Source: a bacterium
GTDB taxonomy: Bacteria > Patescibacteriota > Minisyncoccia > UBA6257 > Colwellbacteraceae
Length of the DNA: 39,302 nt
Assembly (NCBI GenBank): GCA_021787205.1
Contig: JAJYME010000008.1
Coordinates: 1-39,302 of the forward strand
Reading direction: 5' to 3'
Shown here: positions 20,006 through 39,248 of the stretch, piece by piece
Numbering within the stretch: position 1 is the stretch's first letter
Layout of the letters: each line of letters opens with the position of its first letter
Program-made: the position numbers and the translations under genes
The notes under the pieces: model-generated
Databases searched by the model: none
What the model was told of the DNA's origin: nothing
What the model saw: only the letters and a program-made list of their open reading frames with translations

Positions 20006-21256
20006 ATGAAAAATCTTTTCAGGAAAAACTCCGCTTTTACAATCGTCGAGCTTCTGATAACGATTGCCATTGTGATTATTCTCGCTTCCTCGGTTGTCCT
20101 CTATCTTAATCCGGTACAGCGCCTTGCTGAAGGCAGGGATAGTCGTCGCACTAACGAGCTCAACCAGATCTCGGCTGCTCTTAGACTTGTTTATAACCAA
20201 GGCAAAATCAAGGGTAATTCTCAGGTGGTTTATCTTTCTCTGCCGGATTCGTCCGCCACTTGCGGCTCCTATTCTTTGCCGCAGTTGCCCTCAGGTTGGT
20301 CATACGCCTGCGCCCCTTCAGCGACCTATCTTAATGTCGATGGCACCGGTTGGATCCCGGTCAATTTTAACGTCATCCCCGGGGGTTCGACCTTATCCTT
20401 TATTCCGGCTGACCCAAGGAATACCCAGGATTTTTATTATGCCTATGTCACCGACCCGACGGATCACACTTTCGTCGTGACCTCTCTTCTGGAATCTGAA
20501 AAGCATATGAAACTTGCCGCTGCTAAAGACAATGGTTATGACGCCGGGCGTTATGAAGTCGGTTCTAAGGTGGCTTTATGGGGCGATGCCGCCGGCCTTG
20601 TTGCTTATTGGCCGCTGAATGAGGGCAGTGGAAGTGTGATTCATGATTATTCGAGTTCTGCGGCAAATCTGACGGCTTATTCTTTGGTAAACTGGGTTGC
20701 TGGTAAAAACGGCCCTGGAGTCCAGATGGATCCGACAATCTCTACCGGTTGCACAAACCAAAACGCGGGTATTTATAGCAACTCCCTCCCAGCTGCAATT
20801 AAGAATCTTCCCGCGGGAAAGTTCACCCTCTCATGGTGGAACTATCTTCCGTCGAACAGTGGAGTTGCGAGGGTGCATCTGGCGACAACCATCCCAGTGA
20901 CAAGCTGCGGCAACTGCTCTATCTGGAATCGAGTTAATTCAGTCACGACCAATGCATCCGGATATTCCTCGGCTAGTCTTACATACTCAGCTCCATCCAT
21001 AAACGTCTGGCATCATTTTGCTTATACATTTGATCCCATCTCTGGTCAGTCTTATATGTATGTGGACGGCAAACAGACGGCGAGCGGAGCTTTGATTGCC
21101 GGTGGCAATTACGGGACAATCCAATGGGTTGGAATTGGTGTTTACACGCCATCTTGCGTTGATTCGATTCCTGGGCAAATTTTGAATCATGTCCGACTCT
21201 ACAACAGATTGTTGTCCCCAGTAGAAATCCAGTCTGCTTATTCTTCAGAAAGATAG
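20006..21256 (+). CDS. type IV pilin-like protein with C-terminal LamG/concanavalin-like domain
   Basis: SAFTIVELLITIAIVIILASSVVLYL; GLVAYWPLNEGSGSVIHDYSS...WHHFAYTFDPISGQSYMYVDGKQ...VRLYNRLLSPVEIQSAYSSER. Confidence 0.85.
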   Translation: MKNLFRKNSAFTIVELLITIAIVIILASSVVLYLNPVQRLAEGRDSRRTNELNQISAALRLVYNQGKIKGNSQVVYLSLPDSSATCGSYSLPQLPSGWSYACAPSATYLNVDGTGWIPVNFNVIPGGSTLSFIPADPRNTQDFYYAYVTDPTDHTFVVTSLLESEKHMKLAAAKDNGYDAGRYEVGSKVALWGDAAGLVAYWPLNEGSGSVIHDYSSSAANLTAYSLVNWVAGKNGPGVQMDPTISTGCTNQNAGIYSNSLPAAIKNLPAGKFTLSWWNYLPSNSGVARVHLATTIPVTSCGNCSIWNRVNSVTTNASGYSSASLTYSAPSINVWHHFAYTFDPISGQSYMYVDGKQTASGALIAGGNYGTIQWVGIGVYTPSCVDSIPGQILNHVRLYNRLLSPVEIQSAYSSER

Positions 21257-27775: not shown

Positions 27776-28876
27776 ATGAGGTCAAACAGGGCTTTTACGC
27801 TTATAGAACTTTTGATTGTTATCGGCATCATTGCCATTATGAGCTCAATCGGCGTTGGGTATTATTTTGGCTACTATAAGCAGACCGTCCTTAGGTCCCA
27901 GGCTGACAAGATCAGCTCTTTCCTTTACCTTGTCCAACAGAAATCGATCGGCCAGGAGGGCAGGACTAACTGGGGCGTCCATTTTGAGAATCCTTCTACT
28001 GGCACTCCTTACTACGCCTCCTTCCAGGGGACTTCGTACTCGACTCCGGTAGAAAAGTTTTATCTCGATGGTTCTTTGACATACGAATATCCGGCAAGCG
28101 GCCAGAGCTTGGACGTGGTCTTCAGCAAGATTACCGGCAGGACTTACGATAATCAGTATAAGAAAATATATCTTAAGAATACGAGCGGGGAAGGAGATAG
28201 GTCTATTCGGGTGACGCCAATCGGGGTCATTGCCGTTGATGATGGAGAAGTGGCCTGGTGGAAGCTTGATGAGGGCAGCGGCACCTTGGCCGTCGATAAT
28301 ACTGTCTTTCGCTCCAACGCTTCTTTTGTCGGCGCTCCGACCTGGTCTCCAATAGCCGATTGCCGCGGCGAAAGCCAGTGTCTGACTTTCTCTGCCGGCA
28401 ACTACCTCTCCGTCGGCAATGCCGTTCCCTTGAGGATCACCGGCAACCAGACGATCATGATGTGGCTTTATCCGACAAGCTTCGCCTCCCGCCGAAATCC
28501 GTATAATAAGGCCTATGGCGGCGAGGGGACGATTACCCAGGAAACCAGCGGTTCCTTGAGTTATTATTACGGCACTTATGGCGGCGACGGTGGCTCCTAT
28601 CAAGGGTTTGGCAGCACTCCGATCACGATCAATACCTGGTCCCACGTGGCTATCGTGAGGGATCTGACCAATATGAAACTTTACTGGTATATAAACGGCA
28701 AGCAGGTCTCTATGACGAACGCTACTTATTCGGCGGCGGTCAGCGGCACCAACAGCGTTTACATCGGTCACGGCTATGCCGGCGATTATGTTGGCAGGAT
28801 TGACGATGTCAGAGTTTACGACCGGGCCCTGACAGGGGCTGAGATCAAGAAGATTTACGAGCAGACAAGACAATAA
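27776..28876 (+). CDS. type IV pilin/pseudopilin-like protein with C-terminal LamG-like domain
   Basis: RAFTLIELLIVIGIIAIMSSIGVGYYF; EVAWWKLDEGSGTLAVDN...WSHVAIVRDLTNMKLYWYINGKQ...GRIDDVRVYDRALTGAEIKKIYE. Confidence 0.87.
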   Translation: MRSNRAFTLIELLIVIGIIAIMSSIGVGYYFGYYKQTVLRSQADKISSFLYLVQQKSIGQEGRTNWGVHFENPSTGTPYYASFQGTSYSTPVEKFYLDGSLTYEYPASGQSLDVVFSKITGRTYDNQYKKIYLKNTSGEGDRSIRVTPIGVIAVDDGEVAWWKLDEGSGTLAVDNTVFRSNASFVGAPTWSPIADCRGESQCLTFSAGNYLSVGNAVPLRITGNQTIMMWLYPTSFASRRNPYNKAYGGEGTITQETSGSLSYYYGTYGGDGGSYQGFGSTPITINTWSHVAIVRDLTNMKLYWYINGKQVSMTNATYSAAVSGTNSVYIGHGYAGDYVGRIDDVRVYDRALTGAEIKKIYEQTRQ

Positions 28877-30637: not shown

Positions 30638-30678
30638 TTCGCTTTTGCGATGACGATAGTTGTTGTATAATTTTATCA

Positions 30679-32337
30679 ATGAAAAAACAAAGAGGAATAA
30701 AAGGTTTTACTCTTGTTGAGCTTTTGATCTATACGGCCATCTTTACCATGACCGCCGGACTTTTGACGAGTATCTTGATTATGATCAGCAATATCCAAAC
30801 AAAGGAAAACGCATCATTCGAGGTTACCCGTCAGTTGCAATTCATTACCCAGACCGTCCAGTATGCCATTCGCGATTCGGCGGTCGTTGAAAAGGTATAT
30901 GAAGGAAATGATCCGGCTATTGCCTGTACCCAATTTTGCTCCGTCCTTCTCCGTGAGTCCGATCCGACTCTTGATCCTACCATAATCACTTCCGATGCCG
31001 GAGGGGTCTATATCCAAGAAGGCGCCAATCCGAAGGTTCCTCTGACCTCGACCAAGGTGAGGGTATCAGGCCTGACTTTCAAAAAGACGGATAACCCTGG
31101 CGGCATGTCCACGACGGCAGTCAGCCTTTCCATTGTTTATGACGGAGGCACTCCGGAACTTACCTTTTCCAAATCCCTGACCTCTGCCATCGCCCACGTC
31201 CAGGCCGCCACCTTCGATTCCGAACTCCTGCCTGACACTGATGCCGCAAGAGGGATAGGTAGCTCGACTTTGAGATGGAAGGATGCGACCTTGTCGAATG
31301 GGATTACGATTGTCGGCCCTGAAGCCGTCGGAGATTCGGCTAACATCACGATGAGAATGGGAACGGCTCACGGCTCAAGCAATATAAGCCAATATTATGC
31401 TTCCGGCACTCCCGACAAATATGGTGCCCATATGGATGTCGGCGGCACGCCTTTGCTTTATTTGGAAGCTGACAGCGGCACCGCGACCAGGAGATCATAT
31501 CTTTTGAATAGTAACTTAGGAATCGGGACGGCGAACCCGACATCTCCACTTAATGTGTACAACAATACGGTCTGGACTTCTTATGCCGATAACGAGTACC
31601 CTGCTATCTTTAGAACCAATAGCTATGTTGGCATAAAGGTCAAAGCCGATGGTAATGGCTACGCGCCGGCTTCCGTTGTATTGGAATCAACACAAGGGAC
31701 ATCAAGAGGTCAGGGTATATATTATTCTAATTCTACTACAAGCAATCTATGGTTTTCTGGAACGCCTTATACCAGTTCAAATGATAGGTATATTGTGGCT
31801 TATAAGAGTTCGGCAACTTTTACAGGTGATGTTGCTCAAACTGGCAATGCCTTAATGACAGTTCTAACAAACGGGAATGTCGGTATAGGTATGGTTCCGA
31901 CCTACAAGCTTGATGTTACTGGGGATCTGAGAATCACCGGCACGCCCTATAGAGCCGGTGGGGATATCGCTTGGACCGTCCCTTCTGACGCTAGGTTGAA
32001 GAATATCAAAGGCGATTATACTTCCGGTCTCAAGGAAATCTTAGCCCTGACTCCGGTCCGTTATACCTATAAGGAGAATAAGGAAATGGAGCTTCGCTCC
32101 GACAAGGAATATGTCGGTATTATCGCCCAGGAAGCCCAGAAGGTAATCCCGGAATCAGTTTCGACCGATAGTCGCAATGGCTATCTGACTCTTAATACCA
32201 CCCCGATCTTTTGGAGCATTATCAATGCCATTAAGGATCTGAATAAGTCCGATGATGATTTGAGGGCTCAGATAAAGAGTCAGCAAGAGCAGATAAACGC
32301 CCTTGAGGCCCGGCTTAAGTCCTTGGAGAACAGGTAG
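30679..32337 (+). CDS. prepilin-like protein with C-terminal S74-type tail-fibre intramolecular chaperone domain
   Basis: GFTLVELLIYTAIFTMTAGLL N-terminus; C-terminal NVGIGMVPTYKLDVTGDLRI...SDARLKNIKGDYTSGLKEILALTPVRYTYK...YVGIIAQEAQKVIPESV...NALEARLKSLENR. Confidence 0.87.
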   Translation: MKKQRGIKGFTLVELLIYTAIFTMTAGLLTSILIMISNIQTKENASFEVTRQLQFITQTVQYAIRDSAVVEKVYEGNDPAIACTQFCSVLLRESDPTLDPTIITSDAGGVYIQEGANPKVPLTSTKVRVSGLTFKKTDNPGGMSTTAVSLSIVYDGGTPELTFSKSLTSAIAHVQAATFDSELLPDTDAARGIGSSTLRWKDATLSNGITIVGPEAVGDSANITMRMGTAHGSSNISQYYASGTPDKYGAHMDVGGTPLLYLEADSGTATRRSYLLNSNLGIGTANPTSPLNVYNNTVWTSYADNEYPAIFRTNSYVGIKVKADGNGYAPASVVLESTQGTSRGQGIYYSNSTTSNLWFSGTPYTSSNDRYIVAYKSSATFTGDVAQTGNALMTVLTNGNVGIGMVPTYKLDVTGDLRITGTPYRAGGDIAWTVPSDARLKNIKGDYTSGLKEILALTPVRYTYKENKEMELRSDKEYVGIIAQEAQKVIPESVSTDSRNGYLTLNTTPIFWSIINAIKDLNKSDDDLRAQIKSQQEQINALEARLKSLENR

Positions 32338-32383: not shown

Positions 32384-32935
32384 ATGAGAGACTTAGTAAC
32401 ACCACGAGAGCCGTATTTTCAATCACAACATTCAAATATGAATAAAAAATCAAATCTTACAACTACCGTTGCGATTTTGTTATCCCTTGCCATTTTAGGG
32501 GCCGCCGCCTGCTTTGTCATTGGTTATGCCTACAGGCCTTACGTTGCCGTTTATCTTTCAACCGGTGATATCTACTACGGAAAGTTGTCTTATTTCCCGA
32601 CCTTGAAACTTATCAACCCTTGGTTTATCCAAAAGACCCAAGACGGTCAGCTCGCTTTATCCAGATTCTCTGACGCTGTCTGGAAACCTGAGAGCGAGAT
32701 CGTTATCGCCAGGGATAAGGTTGTCTTTATCGCCAAGCTTGATAAGACCAGTCCGGTCATTGATGCTATTGATGGAAAGCAATCCGCCGTCCAGCAACAG
32801 CAGCAGGGTCAGCAGACTCAGCCCCAACAGCAGGTCCAGCAACCGGTTCAACAGAACCAGCCAGGAACTAACGATGGCGTTTCCAATCCGACTAAGGACA
32901 CTACCACCAACACCAATCAGCCTAAAAGAAATTAA
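32384..32935 (+). CDS. single-pass membrane protein with Gln-rich C-terminal tail, unknown
   Basis: TM ILLSLAILGAAACFVIGYAY; YVAVYLSTGDIYYGKL; poly-Q/P tail; start may be the later ATG. Confidence 0.6.
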   Translation: MRDLVTPREPYFQSQHSNMNKKSNLTTTVAILLSLAILGAAACFVIGYAYRPYVAVYLSTGDIYYGKLSYFPTLKLINPWFIQKTQDGQLALSRFSDAVWKPESEIVIARDKVVFIAKLDKTSPVIDAIDGKQSAVQQQQQGQQTQPQQQVQQPVQQNQPGTNDGVSNPTKDTTTNTNQPKRN

Positions 32936-32964
32936 TAAAACACCCTTAAGGGTGTTTTATTTTG
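32935..32964 (+). terminator. bidirectional intrinsic terminator
   Basis: AATAAAACACCC-TTAA-GGGTGTTTTATT. Confidence 0.85.
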
Positions 32965-33610
32965 CTCTGGCAAAAACGAGGTAATCGATCTTTCTGACTC
33001 CGGCGCTTCTCAATATCCTTGCCGCCTCATTCATAGTCGCTCCGCTGGTTCGGATATCATCAACTAAGATGACTTTTTCGGGAATCTGGCTTTGGCTGTC
33101 GATCGCGAATGCCCCTCTGATGTTTTCCATTCTCTCGGCGTCGCTCTCAAGCAGGCTTTGGGGTGTGGTCATTCTTGTTCTTTTCAAGATTGCTAAGACG
33201 GGGATCTTCAATTCCTTGCCTATCCTTCCGGCTAATAATTCTGCCTGGTTAAAACCCCTGGCTCTGAGCTTCCTCGGGTGAAGGGGGACCGGAACGATAG
33301 CTGCCCCAGGAATTGATTCTTCCAACCCGCTGGTTCTTATATGTGCCGTCATGAATCGCGCCATGGGAGCCGCCGCTGATCTGTCACAGTCATATTTCAA
33401 TCTTTTAATGAAGCCGGCTGAGACATCATCGTAGTCAAAGGGTGAATAAACCAGCACTCCGCCACTTTTCTCGGGATTTTTCTTGATGATGATTGCCGAG
33501 AGGCATTTTCCACAGAGATGGTCATCTCTCTCATTATCCAGCAATATCTGATTGCAGGAAATGCAAAAGGTGGGGAATAGGGAATCGAGAATGAAATTTA
33601 ATAAAAACAT
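32957..33610 (-). CDS. comF: ComF-family phosphoribosyltransferase-like protein
   Basis: CISCNQIL...CGKC zinc ribbon; VPVPLHPRKLRARGFNQAELLA; VILVDDIRTSGATMNEAARILR. Confidence 0.9.
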   Translation of the reverse strand: MFLLNFILDSLFPTFCISCNQILLDNERDDHLCGKCLSAIIIKKNPEKSGGVLVYSPFDYDDVSAGFIKRLKYDCDRSAAAPMARFMTAHIRTSGLEESIPGAAIVPVPLHPRKLRARGFNQAELLAGRIGKELKIPVLAILKRTRMTTPQSLLESDAERMENIRGAFAIDSQSQIPEKVILVDDIRTSGATMNEAARILRSAGVRKIDYLVFARAK

Positions 33611-33650
33611 TTCTTGTTTTTCGATGTTTCTGTTATAATTAACATTAATT

Positions 33651-34718
33651 ATGCTTGAAGTTCTTGGTAAAAAAAATATCCTGGGAGTTGATATCGGGAC
33701 CGTCTCTATCAAAGTTGCCGAATTGCAATCAGCCGGAGAGGGGAATTTCTTGCTTACCAATTATGGGATTGCCGAATCGACCGAATATCTTGATCGTTCC
33801 AACAGTGTCATTCAAAGCAGCTCTTTTAAGATTGATGAATCATCCGCGGTGGATATGCTCTCCTTCCTTATCAAGAAGGGGGATTTCAAGACCAAGGACT
33901 GTTGCGCTGCCGTTCCCGGATTCACTTCTTTTACTTCGTTGCTCGAACTTCCGGTTATGTCCGATGCGGAATTAGCCCAGGCCATCCCTTTCCAGGCTCG
34001 CTCGCTTGTCCCTCTTCCCATTTCCGATGTGACTATCGACTGGATGCCGATCGGCACCTTTGAAGATGAGAAGGGAAACAAAAAGCAGCAGATATTCATG
34101 GTTTCCGTTCCTAACGAGACCATCCATACTTACCACAGCATCTTCAAAAAATCCGGACTTAATTTAAAGATGTTGGAAATTGAAGGCATGAGTTTGGCCA
34201 GAGCCCTGTCTAACAAAGGGGATGGCAATATCCTCGTCATTGATATAGGCGCCTTATCAACCTTGATAACTGTCGTATCCAATGGTTCGCTTAAATATTC
34301 GACCCAAACCGATTTTGCCGGCAGTTCGCTGACACAGGCTCTCATCAAAGGCTTGGGTATCTCCTCAAAAAGAGCGGAAATACTAAAGAAACAAAGAGGG
34401 CTCTCCGGTATGACGGGCGAATACGGATTATCCACTTTAATGCAGCCTTTTCTGGATGTTATAATTAATGAAGCAAGAAGAGTCGGGGATATCTTTGAGA
34501 AAAAATATAATCAAAAGATCGAAAAGGTTCTTCTGACCGGCGGTGGCGCCGACCTTGTCGGTATCGATGTCTATATAGCCAAGGCCCTATCTCTCAAAAC
34601 CGAGAAAGGGAACGGCATGGAAAAGATCAAATTCCCGGCGATTGTCGCTCCGATAGCGTCTTGGATAGGTACTCGCTTTGCCGTAGCCTTGGGCGCAGGA
34701 TTAAAAATATTTTATTAA
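33651..34718 (+). CDS. pilM: type IV pilus assembly protein PilM
   Basis: VLGKKNILGVDIGTVSIKVAEL; AIPFQARSLVPLPISDVTIDW; VLLTGGGADLVGIDVYIAKAL. Confidence 0.93.
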   Translation: MLEVLGKKNILGVDIGTVSIKVAELQSAGEGNFLLTNYGIAESTEYLDRSNSVIQSSSFKIDESSAVDMLSFLIKKGDFKTKDCCAAVPGFTSFTSLLELPVMSDAELAQAIPFQARSLVPLPISDVTIDWMPIGTFEDEKGNKKQQIFMVSVPNETIHTYHSIFKKSGLNLKMLEIEGMSLARALSNKGDGNILVIDIGALSTLITVVSNGSLKYSTQTDFAGSSLTQALIKGLGISSKRAEILKKQRGLSGMTGEYGLSTLMQPFLDVIINEARRVGDIFEKKYNQKIEKVLLTGGGADLVGIDVYIAKALSLKTEKGNGMEKIKFPAIVAPIASWIGTRFAVALGAGLKIFY

Positions 34719-38172: not shown

Positions 38173-39248
38173 TGATCAATTATCAGGAAAAACTAAATCA
38201 ACTTTTGCAGCTTACCGCCAGGCAAGGCGCTTCCGATTTGCACATCGCTGTCGGCCGTCGCCCCACCGTCAGGATTGATGGCTCGCTCATCAGCTTGCAG
38301 CAGGAGCCGATCTTATCGCCAGAAGATGCCCAGGGGTTATCGCTCGCGCTTTTGACTCCGGATCAGAAGGAAAAGCTTTTGAAATTCGGCGATGTCGATT
38401 TTACCTACGCTTATGAAGATAAGGCCCGCTTCAGGACTAATGTCTACTTCCAGAGAGGATTTTTGGCTGCCGCTCTTCGCTTGATTCCAGCTGGGATTAA
38501 GAGTACGGAAGACCTCAGGCTTCCACCAGTAATGCACGAGTTCTCAAAGCTCTCCCAGGGATTTGTCCTGGTGGTGGGACCTGCCGGTCAGGGTAAATCA
38601 ACTACCTTGGCGGCTTTGATTGATGAGATCAATCATAAAAGGATGGATCACATCATCACCGTTGAGGATCCTATTGAATATCTTTTTATCCAGGATAAAT
38701 CGATCATCTCCCAAAGGGAGGTCTCGACCGATTCTCCGGATTTTCACAGGGCTTTGCGCGCTATTCTGCGTCAGGACCCGGATGTCTTGATGATCGGTGA
38801 AATGCGTGACCAGGAATCAATCGCGACCGCTATGACTGCCGCGGAAACCGGTCACTTGGTCTTCTCGACTTTGCATACCAATTCCGCTGCTCAGACCATC
38901 GACCGTATCGTCGATTCTTTCCCGGCGGAACAGCAAGACCAGGCTGCTTCTCAGCTTGCGGCCACGCTCGTCGGGATTATCTCCCAGCGTTTGGTTCCGA
39001 GGATCGGTGGAGGCCGCGTTCCTGCTTGTGAAATCATGATCGCAAACCCCGCCGTCAAGAATCTGATCAGAGAGAAGAAATTCTTTCAGATCGATTTGGT
39101 CATAGAGACGAGTCTTCAGGAGGGAATGATAACCTTGAACCGCTCTCTGGCTGAACTTGTCGTCAGGAAGGAGATTGCCGTAGAGACCGCAGAAACCTAT
39201 TCGCTCAATCCGGGCGAACTGAGACTGTTGCTTGATAGAATGAGATAA
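38172..39248 (+). CDS. pilT: type IV pilus retraction-type ATPase PilT
   Basis: GPAGQGKSTTLAALID; RQDPDVLMIGEMRDQESIATAMTAAETGHLVFSTLHT. Confidence 0.94.
   Translation: MINYQEKLNQLLQLTARQGASDLHIAVGRRPTVRIDGSLISLQQEPILSPEDAQGLSLALLTPDQKEKLLKFGDVDFTYAYEDKARFRTNVYFQRGFLAAALRLIPAGIKSTEDLRLPPVMHEFSKLSQGFVLVVGPAGQGKSTTLAALIDEINHKRMDHIITVEDPIEYLFIQDKSIISQREVSTDSPDFHRALRAILRQDPDVLMIGEMRDQESIATAMTAAETGHLVFSTLHTNSAAQTIDRIVDSFPAEQQDQAASQLAATLVGIISQRLVPRIGGGRVPACEIMIANPAVKNLIREKKFFQIDLVIETSLQEGMITLNRSLAELVVRKEIAVETAETYSLNPGELRLLLDRMR

Follow-up and report, generated by a model that had tools for sequence, protein, structure and literature searches.

A minor prepilin with an S74 fibre chaperone, built on a pilin chassis that carries varying heads across an order of Patescibacteriota

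The combination of an N_methyl start with a Peptidase S74 domain (IPR012902-IPR030392) ranks among the 15 commonest modular pilin architectures in the survey by Raynaud et al. 2021, which also describes CofB and TcpB as homotrimeric minor pilins that sit at the tip of T4b pili and bear a large C-terminal extension (PMC8179133). Within the Patescibacteria, type IV pili have been implicated in partner-cell binding in one cultured lineage, and the Saccharibacteria minor pilin PilX2, which carries a C-terminal propeller, is required for full host binding (PMC12206443). In the studied members of the S74 family, a Ser/Lys dyad whose lysine follows the serine at +5 (S587/K592 in MYRF, S911/K916 in endoNF) cuts its own chain after trimerisation; in MYRF both residues are indispensable, and cleavage requires trimerisation (PMC8326128). 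The targets of diversity-generating retroelements (DGRs) in this radiation are usually without a recognisable membrane or other domain (Roux et al., PMC8144416), and putative pilin structures have been cited among such targets (PMC6642488), so that a link between pilins and these elements is not wholly unprecedented. Our literature searches returned no paper on DGRs with prepilins, no relevant one on peptidase S74 with pilins (the 2021 modular-pilin survey gives the domain by its InterPro number), and none on S74 tail fibres in the candidate phyla radiation.

The locus described here lies in the window (the whole stretch of 39,302 nucleotides that was analysed, positions 1-39,302 of the forward strand of contig JAJYME010000008.1, assembly GCA_021787205.1), which comes from a member of the Colwellbacteraceae (Patescibacteriota; Minisyncoccia; UBA6257). 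The source genome, in 11 contigs, totals 616 kb; those of its relatives that bear names are Ca. Colwellbacteria MAGs, and the bacterium is probably host-dependent; the order also holds Harrisonbacteria, Jorgensenbacteria, Liptonbacteria and Wolfebacteria. On the plus strand, an unbroken reading frame with its ATG at 30679 and a stop codon ending at 32337 encodes a modular minor prepilin of 552 residues: after a class III prepilin start come a minor pilin domain of the J type, a stalk like that of phage fibres and, at the C-terminus, an S74 chaperone. A preliminary description of the stretch had placed a prepilin N-terminus and an S74 C-terminus in one protein, and the reading frame and Pfam agree with it: the profile search that it proposed recovers both N_methyl (PF07963, residues 7-29, E 6.6e-5, 22.8 bits against a cut-off of 21.2) and Peptidase_S74 (PF13884, residues 436-494, E 5.4e-13, 49.5 bits against a cut-off of 22). 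A TATAAT box 7 bases 5' of the ATG (window 30640-30681; TATAATTTTATCAATG) suggests that the transcript may be leaderless.

The gene belongs to a type IV pilus setting. Downstream of it begins a pilus operon whose first gene is pilM (33651..34718, +; Pfam PilM_2), followed up to position 39248 by pilN, pilO, pilB and pilT-like genes, which were named from their sequence and have tblastn matches in relatives. The order of the pilin upstream of pilM is kept in several family members, and in the closest relatives the pilin lies just upstream. It sits in a type IV pilus operon among housekeeping genes, not in a phage genome among structural genes, and in the annotated part of the window Pfam showed no further phage gene nearby. 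A small protein with one transmembrane segment and no Pfam match is encoded at 32384..32935 (+), and relatives of it lie downstream of the pilin in 14 of the 72 named loci. The source genome also encodes a prepilin peptidase (a single Peptidase_A24 gene, located elsewhere), T2SSF/PilC-type genes and other prepilins, with 21 N_methyl matches in its 616 kb. Two further modular pilins that combine N_methyl with Laminin_G_3 (Pfam) fall within the window, at 27776..28876 (+) and at 20006..21256 (+), the N_methyl match of the latter scoring 20.6 bits against the cut-off of 21.2 and 25.0 bits in a six-frame search; with these two counted in, LamG-like ends akin to theirs are found on eight of the genome's 21 prepilin-type genes.

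The leader, MKKQRGIKG (30679..30705, +), runs directly into FTLVELL, and the predicted prepilin peptidase cut falls after Gly9, before Phe10, with Glu14 at +5. This is a canonical class III site, and the prepilin signal first read in the segment KGFTLVELL is borne out by these residues as well as by the N_methyl score. For the domain that follows (residues 10-174; 30706..31200, +), an AlphaFold2 model of residues 1-215, built on 67 homologues and with a mean pLDDT of 87.5, predicts a long N-terminal helix (residues 12-66) and a beta-sheet head. A Foldseek search of the PDB returned nothing significant for this domain, and a second structural look (VIA) found the matches, at Z 9-12: the type IV-like pilin TTHA1219 (Z 11.7) at the top, then the J-type minor pseudopilins XcpW (3nje, Z 10.5), EpsJ (Z 9.4) and GspJ (3ci0, Z 9.3), and PilB of S. 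sanguinis, a known modular pilin (Z 9.1). After the minor pilins, the matches drop to Z ~5 and below. As modelled, the pilin part is a J-type minor pilin fold of the GspJ/XcpW kind.

The pilin domain bears directly on the possibility that the protein is a membrane-anchored trimeric surface fibre, whose prepilin start would serve export and anchoring alone and which would never be polymerised into a pilus. Nearby genomes do have separate S74 fibre proteins with ordinary N-terminal membrane anchors, some of them adjoining this locus, so that fibres of this kind occur without a pilin, and pilin heads grouped in threes may be hard to accommodate in the pilus helix; a plain anchor, however, would need neither a conserved globular J-type domain that folds as a minor pilin nor synteny with pilM, and we consider this reading rather unlikely.

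Beyond the pilin domain lies an order-specific connector, AATFDSELLP...IG....LRWKD (31201..31323, +), eight positions of which (A176, A177, T178, F179, D180, P185, G194 and W200) are invariant in a 67-row alignment. A search with the window's protein found pilin relatives in 178 of the 244 genomes of the order, nearly all of the matches being to the pilin part (about residues 5-220) of frames that range from ~150 to >2000 aa in length. In a sample of 116 genomes drawn from across the phylum, most of the homologues are 160-230 aa frames that stop where the pilin fold does, and those from outside the order are mostly short, bare pilins that end before the connector. A chassis of conserved pilin and connector, bearing varying heads, is thus found order-wide.

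The heads placed past the connector include S74, phage Collar, C1q, LamG, Kelch, LVIVD, F5/8C and glycine-rich types, and they vary even inside one genus. The closest relative of the window's pilin is ~55-60% identical to it up to about residue 300 and then <20% identical over much of the head, which holds no S74. In the place of S74 this relative (L019/L107 895-2424) has a short end of the form DRTPYP...DHSTL, followed by a coiled coil and without a Pfam match, which is perhaps another trimerisation cap. Two species of one genus have the pilin and a C-terminal hydrophobic tail in common, with much less alike in the sequence between. In L012 (5517-7814) and L062 (6002-8308), two species of one genus, a near-identical hydrophobic tail (ILGAGLLGGLLGGA.ILLLLERKH) closes proteins with different heads, one of them S74; this tail may keep the chain membrane-bound at either end up to the time of cleavage. 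Five other relatives (L066, L071, L081, L083 and L078) carry on their pilins a common C-terminal head, KLTVGTVDPLF...RLTAPRFD, that is assigned to no family, the PHROGs tail-fibre match for it being weak and confined to L066. C1q-like heads had been suspected by eye in L014, L057 and L104, and Pfam backs one in L077 only.

S74 heads occur on the chassis in 7 genomes, the window's and that of L158 counted. The S74 domains of these seven pilins are not monophyletic, a single origin of S74 pilins being rejected (AU p = 0.0009), which indicates that S74 joined the chassis more than once. That the window's S74 groups with viral contigs was set aside as a sign of phage origin, these contigs having been recruited with the window's own peptides. 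The same seven genomes dispose of the suggestion that a prophage remnant or an assembly chimera has accidentally fused a pilin to a tail fibre. The head is indeed phage-like, but the frame is open, the connector conserved and the synteny with pilM kept in the family, and the joining of pilin to S74 in six other genomes means that neither a chance fusion nor an assembly chimera is at hand; the idea is effectively refuted by the relatives, and we give it practically no credence. Of the preliminary description's picture of a chimera of pilin and phage fibre, the domain reading stands, and the implication of a one-off does not: the architecture had been catalogued in 2021, and across the order the same pilin chassis bears many other heads.

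The stalk itself (residues 216-435; 31324..31983, +) also resembles phage fibres. Tail-fibre families of the PHROGs collection cover residues 270-546 (best match phrog_1980, E 2.5e-21), which makes the stalk as well as the S74 domain fibre-like by this measure, and tblastn matches are found in phages, where they are annotated as tail fibres. The stalk contains GIG...P repeats (31513-31563 and 31876-31929, +), which had earlier been taken as typical of fibre-associated regions. A second model, spanning residues 176-552, is confident in its C-terminal part only, and the stalk, modelled as a monomer, has a pLDDT <50; a poorly modelled monomer would be expected if the stalk is an intertwined trimer, yet is no evidence for one.

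The Peptidase_S74/intramolecular chaperone domain (31984..32160, +) has as its best PDB match by sequence the chaperone of MYRF (7dc3, phmmer E 2.2e-5). The fold, whose failure to appear would have told against the initial reading, is recovered: the modelled domain superposes on the MyRF ICA structure 7dc3 with Z 9.2 and an rmsd of 2.1 A over 106 residues, and model residue 261, which is Ser436 of the protein, falls on MYRF Ser587. Ser436 (31984..31986, +) is accordingly the predicted autocleavage nucleophile, with the cut expected before it, and Lys441 (31999..32001, +) the predicted general base, the dyad being that described for MYRF (PMC8326128). Both codons had been located exactly in the preliminary description, and the Ser-x4-Lys arrangement that it pointed out has the same +5 spacing as the dyads of MYRF and endoNF. 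Behind the domain, a predicted helix (residues 507-551; 32197..32331, +; pLDDT mostly >85) is expected to form a trimeric coiled coil. The source genome holds a second S74 protein (C2:97113-100391), which is 1000 aa or more in length and continues C-terminally past S74; the portion read shows no pilin start.

Two other functions of the S74 domain may be weighed against this dyad. The domain could be a protease module with 'peptidase activity' on other proteins, as its database name (Peptidase_S74) implies and as the architecture is read in the 2021 survey (PMC8179133). The dyads that have been studied, however, cut their own chain after trimerisation (PMC8326128), and the dyad of the window's pilin stands at the same place, after a fibre stalk and with a C-terminal helix behind, so that action on other proteins appears highly improbable. 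Alternatively, the protein could be a trimeric, S74-tipped minor pilin that undergoes no self-cleavage and keeps S74 as its distal tip. Cleavage is indeed predicted from residues only, and the S74 relative that has a membrane-spanning tail after its S74 would fit retention of the domain, at least as a tether; against this, every one of the seven copies found on pilins retains the Ser, Arg and Lys of the S..R.K motif, the pattern that selection for cleavage should leave, and we regard an uncut tip as improbable. If cleavage does happen as in phages and MYRF, S74 would be shed, and the adhesive part would be the stalk and the tip that precede Ser436.

Some heads on the same chassis are linked to diversity-generating retroelements. 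A scan for variable regions, which took in the relatives' loci and one locus of the source genome (L220), found two window-type pilins that end in a variable region: L058 (5076-5938), where 16 of 16 substitutions fall at template A, and L085 (8188-10096), where 12 of 13 do. At both loci a template repeat lies 596-722 bases off and an RVT_1 gene is close by; in L058 the reverse transcriptase gene is on the strand opposite the pilin. L220 (2114-4084; C3:121113-123083) encodes a prepilin with a sulfatase-modifying-factor-like head and a variable region in which 13 of 14 mismatches are at template A, accompanied by a template repeat, a bAvd gene and an RVT_1 gene that is split over two overlapping frames in this assembly. 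A repeat match in L098 was discarded, since the repeat there is long but ordinary and has its mismatches at the very ends. All three DGR targets found are prepilins, then, and two of them share their chassis with the window's gene.

This variety bears on whether the protein might be a minor pilin for DNA uptake (competence) instead of an adhesin. J-type minor pilins occur in competence pili too, and a ComFC-like gene, identified by reading the sequence, lies nearby on the minus strand (32957-33760). DNA binding, however, needs no such variety as heads that change within a genus and that in two relatives are retroelement targets, and a role in competence seems very unlikely. Exchangeable heads, some of them under targeted hypermutation, suggest an exchangeable hook for partner-cell recognition.

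From the computed domain identities and folds, the position of the dyad, the order-wide chassis and the exchange of heads, we infer, with moderate confidence, that the protein probably forms the receptor-binding tip of a type IV pilus, as a homotrimer that processes itself, and that its J-type minor pilin part displays a fibre of the phage kind. After export by Sec, the N-terminal helix would hold the protein in the membrane, and its 9-residue leader would be taken off by prepilin peptidase. Three copies would then associate through the C-terminal coiled coil and the S74 domain, which would nucleate the trimeric fibre stalk and set its register; correct trimerisation would bring Ser436 into line with Lys441, the chain would be cut before Ser436, and the 117-residue chaperone would come away, after which three pilin heads would carry a locked trimeric fibre. 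Like CofB and TcpB, this complex would take its place at the pilus tip or close to it, on the pilus that the neighbouring pilM-N-O-B-T machinery builds, and its fibre would bind the surface of a partner cell. A point against this picture is that the GspK-I-J tip is generally taken to contain a single J-type pseudopilin, so that a trimer of J subunits would need a CofB-like arrangement. More tentatively, and at somewhat less than even chances, the constant J-type pilin and connector may form a receptor-display platform, a cellular counterpart of the phage tail-fibre base, on which trimeric heads are swapped between species (S74-chaperoned fibres, Collar, C1q) or hypermutated by DGRs and which would set the partner cell that an episymbiont can hold.

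For the question of how Patescibacteria choose and hold their partners, this locus singles out one subunit, which occurs in nature with a series of swapped heads and could determine the range of partners. The prepilin targets also give a testable structure to the remark (PMC8144416) on DGR targets without a recognisable domain, and if trimerisation and cleavage prove true, phage fibre assembly would have been reused in a pilus.

Among described systems, the modular pilin of Raynaud et al. has the same two modules in the same order as the window's pilin, and the bare N_methyl and S74 architecture is thus already known; that survey, in contrast, calls the module a peptidase and describes no fibre stalk, J-type assignment or head exchange (PMC8179133). 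Set against the literature searched, what is new is the reading of the peptidase as a self-cleaving fibre chaperone, the identification of the pilin as a J-type tip subunit, a chassis that spans the order and has its heads swapped, and homologues that are hypermutated. CofB and TcpB, as described in the same survey, are also minor pilins with a large C-terminal extension (PMC8179133), but theirs consists of a beta-repeat and a beta-sandwich, with no S74 or phage fibre. PilX2 is likewise a patescibacterial minor pilin with an extra C-terminal domain, which differs in being an RCC1 beta-propeller with a noncanonical signal and no S74 (PMC12206443). The MYRF ICA (7dc3) resembles the window's pilin in being its best PDB match, in its Ser/Lys dyad at +5 and in belonging to a membrane-anchored protein; MYRF, however, is a eukaryotic transcription factor whose anchor comes after the domain, whereas that of the pilin is N-terminal. 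The chaperones of endosialidase endoNF, GA-1 gp12 and the T5 L-shaped tail fibre (3gw6, 3gud and 4uw8) share the S74 fold (Z 5.0 to 6.2) and its placement after a fibre, trimeric in the phages and predicted to be so in the window's pilin, but these are phage adhesins carried on a virion and not on a pilin. BPP-1 Mtd, finally, is a DGR-diversified phage receptor-binding protein, and proteins of its type are matched by the chassis homologues L058 and L085 in having a DGR variable region at the receptor-binding end; in contrast to Mtd, these two relatives are cellular pilins, and the window's gene carries S74 where they carry retroelement-linked heads.
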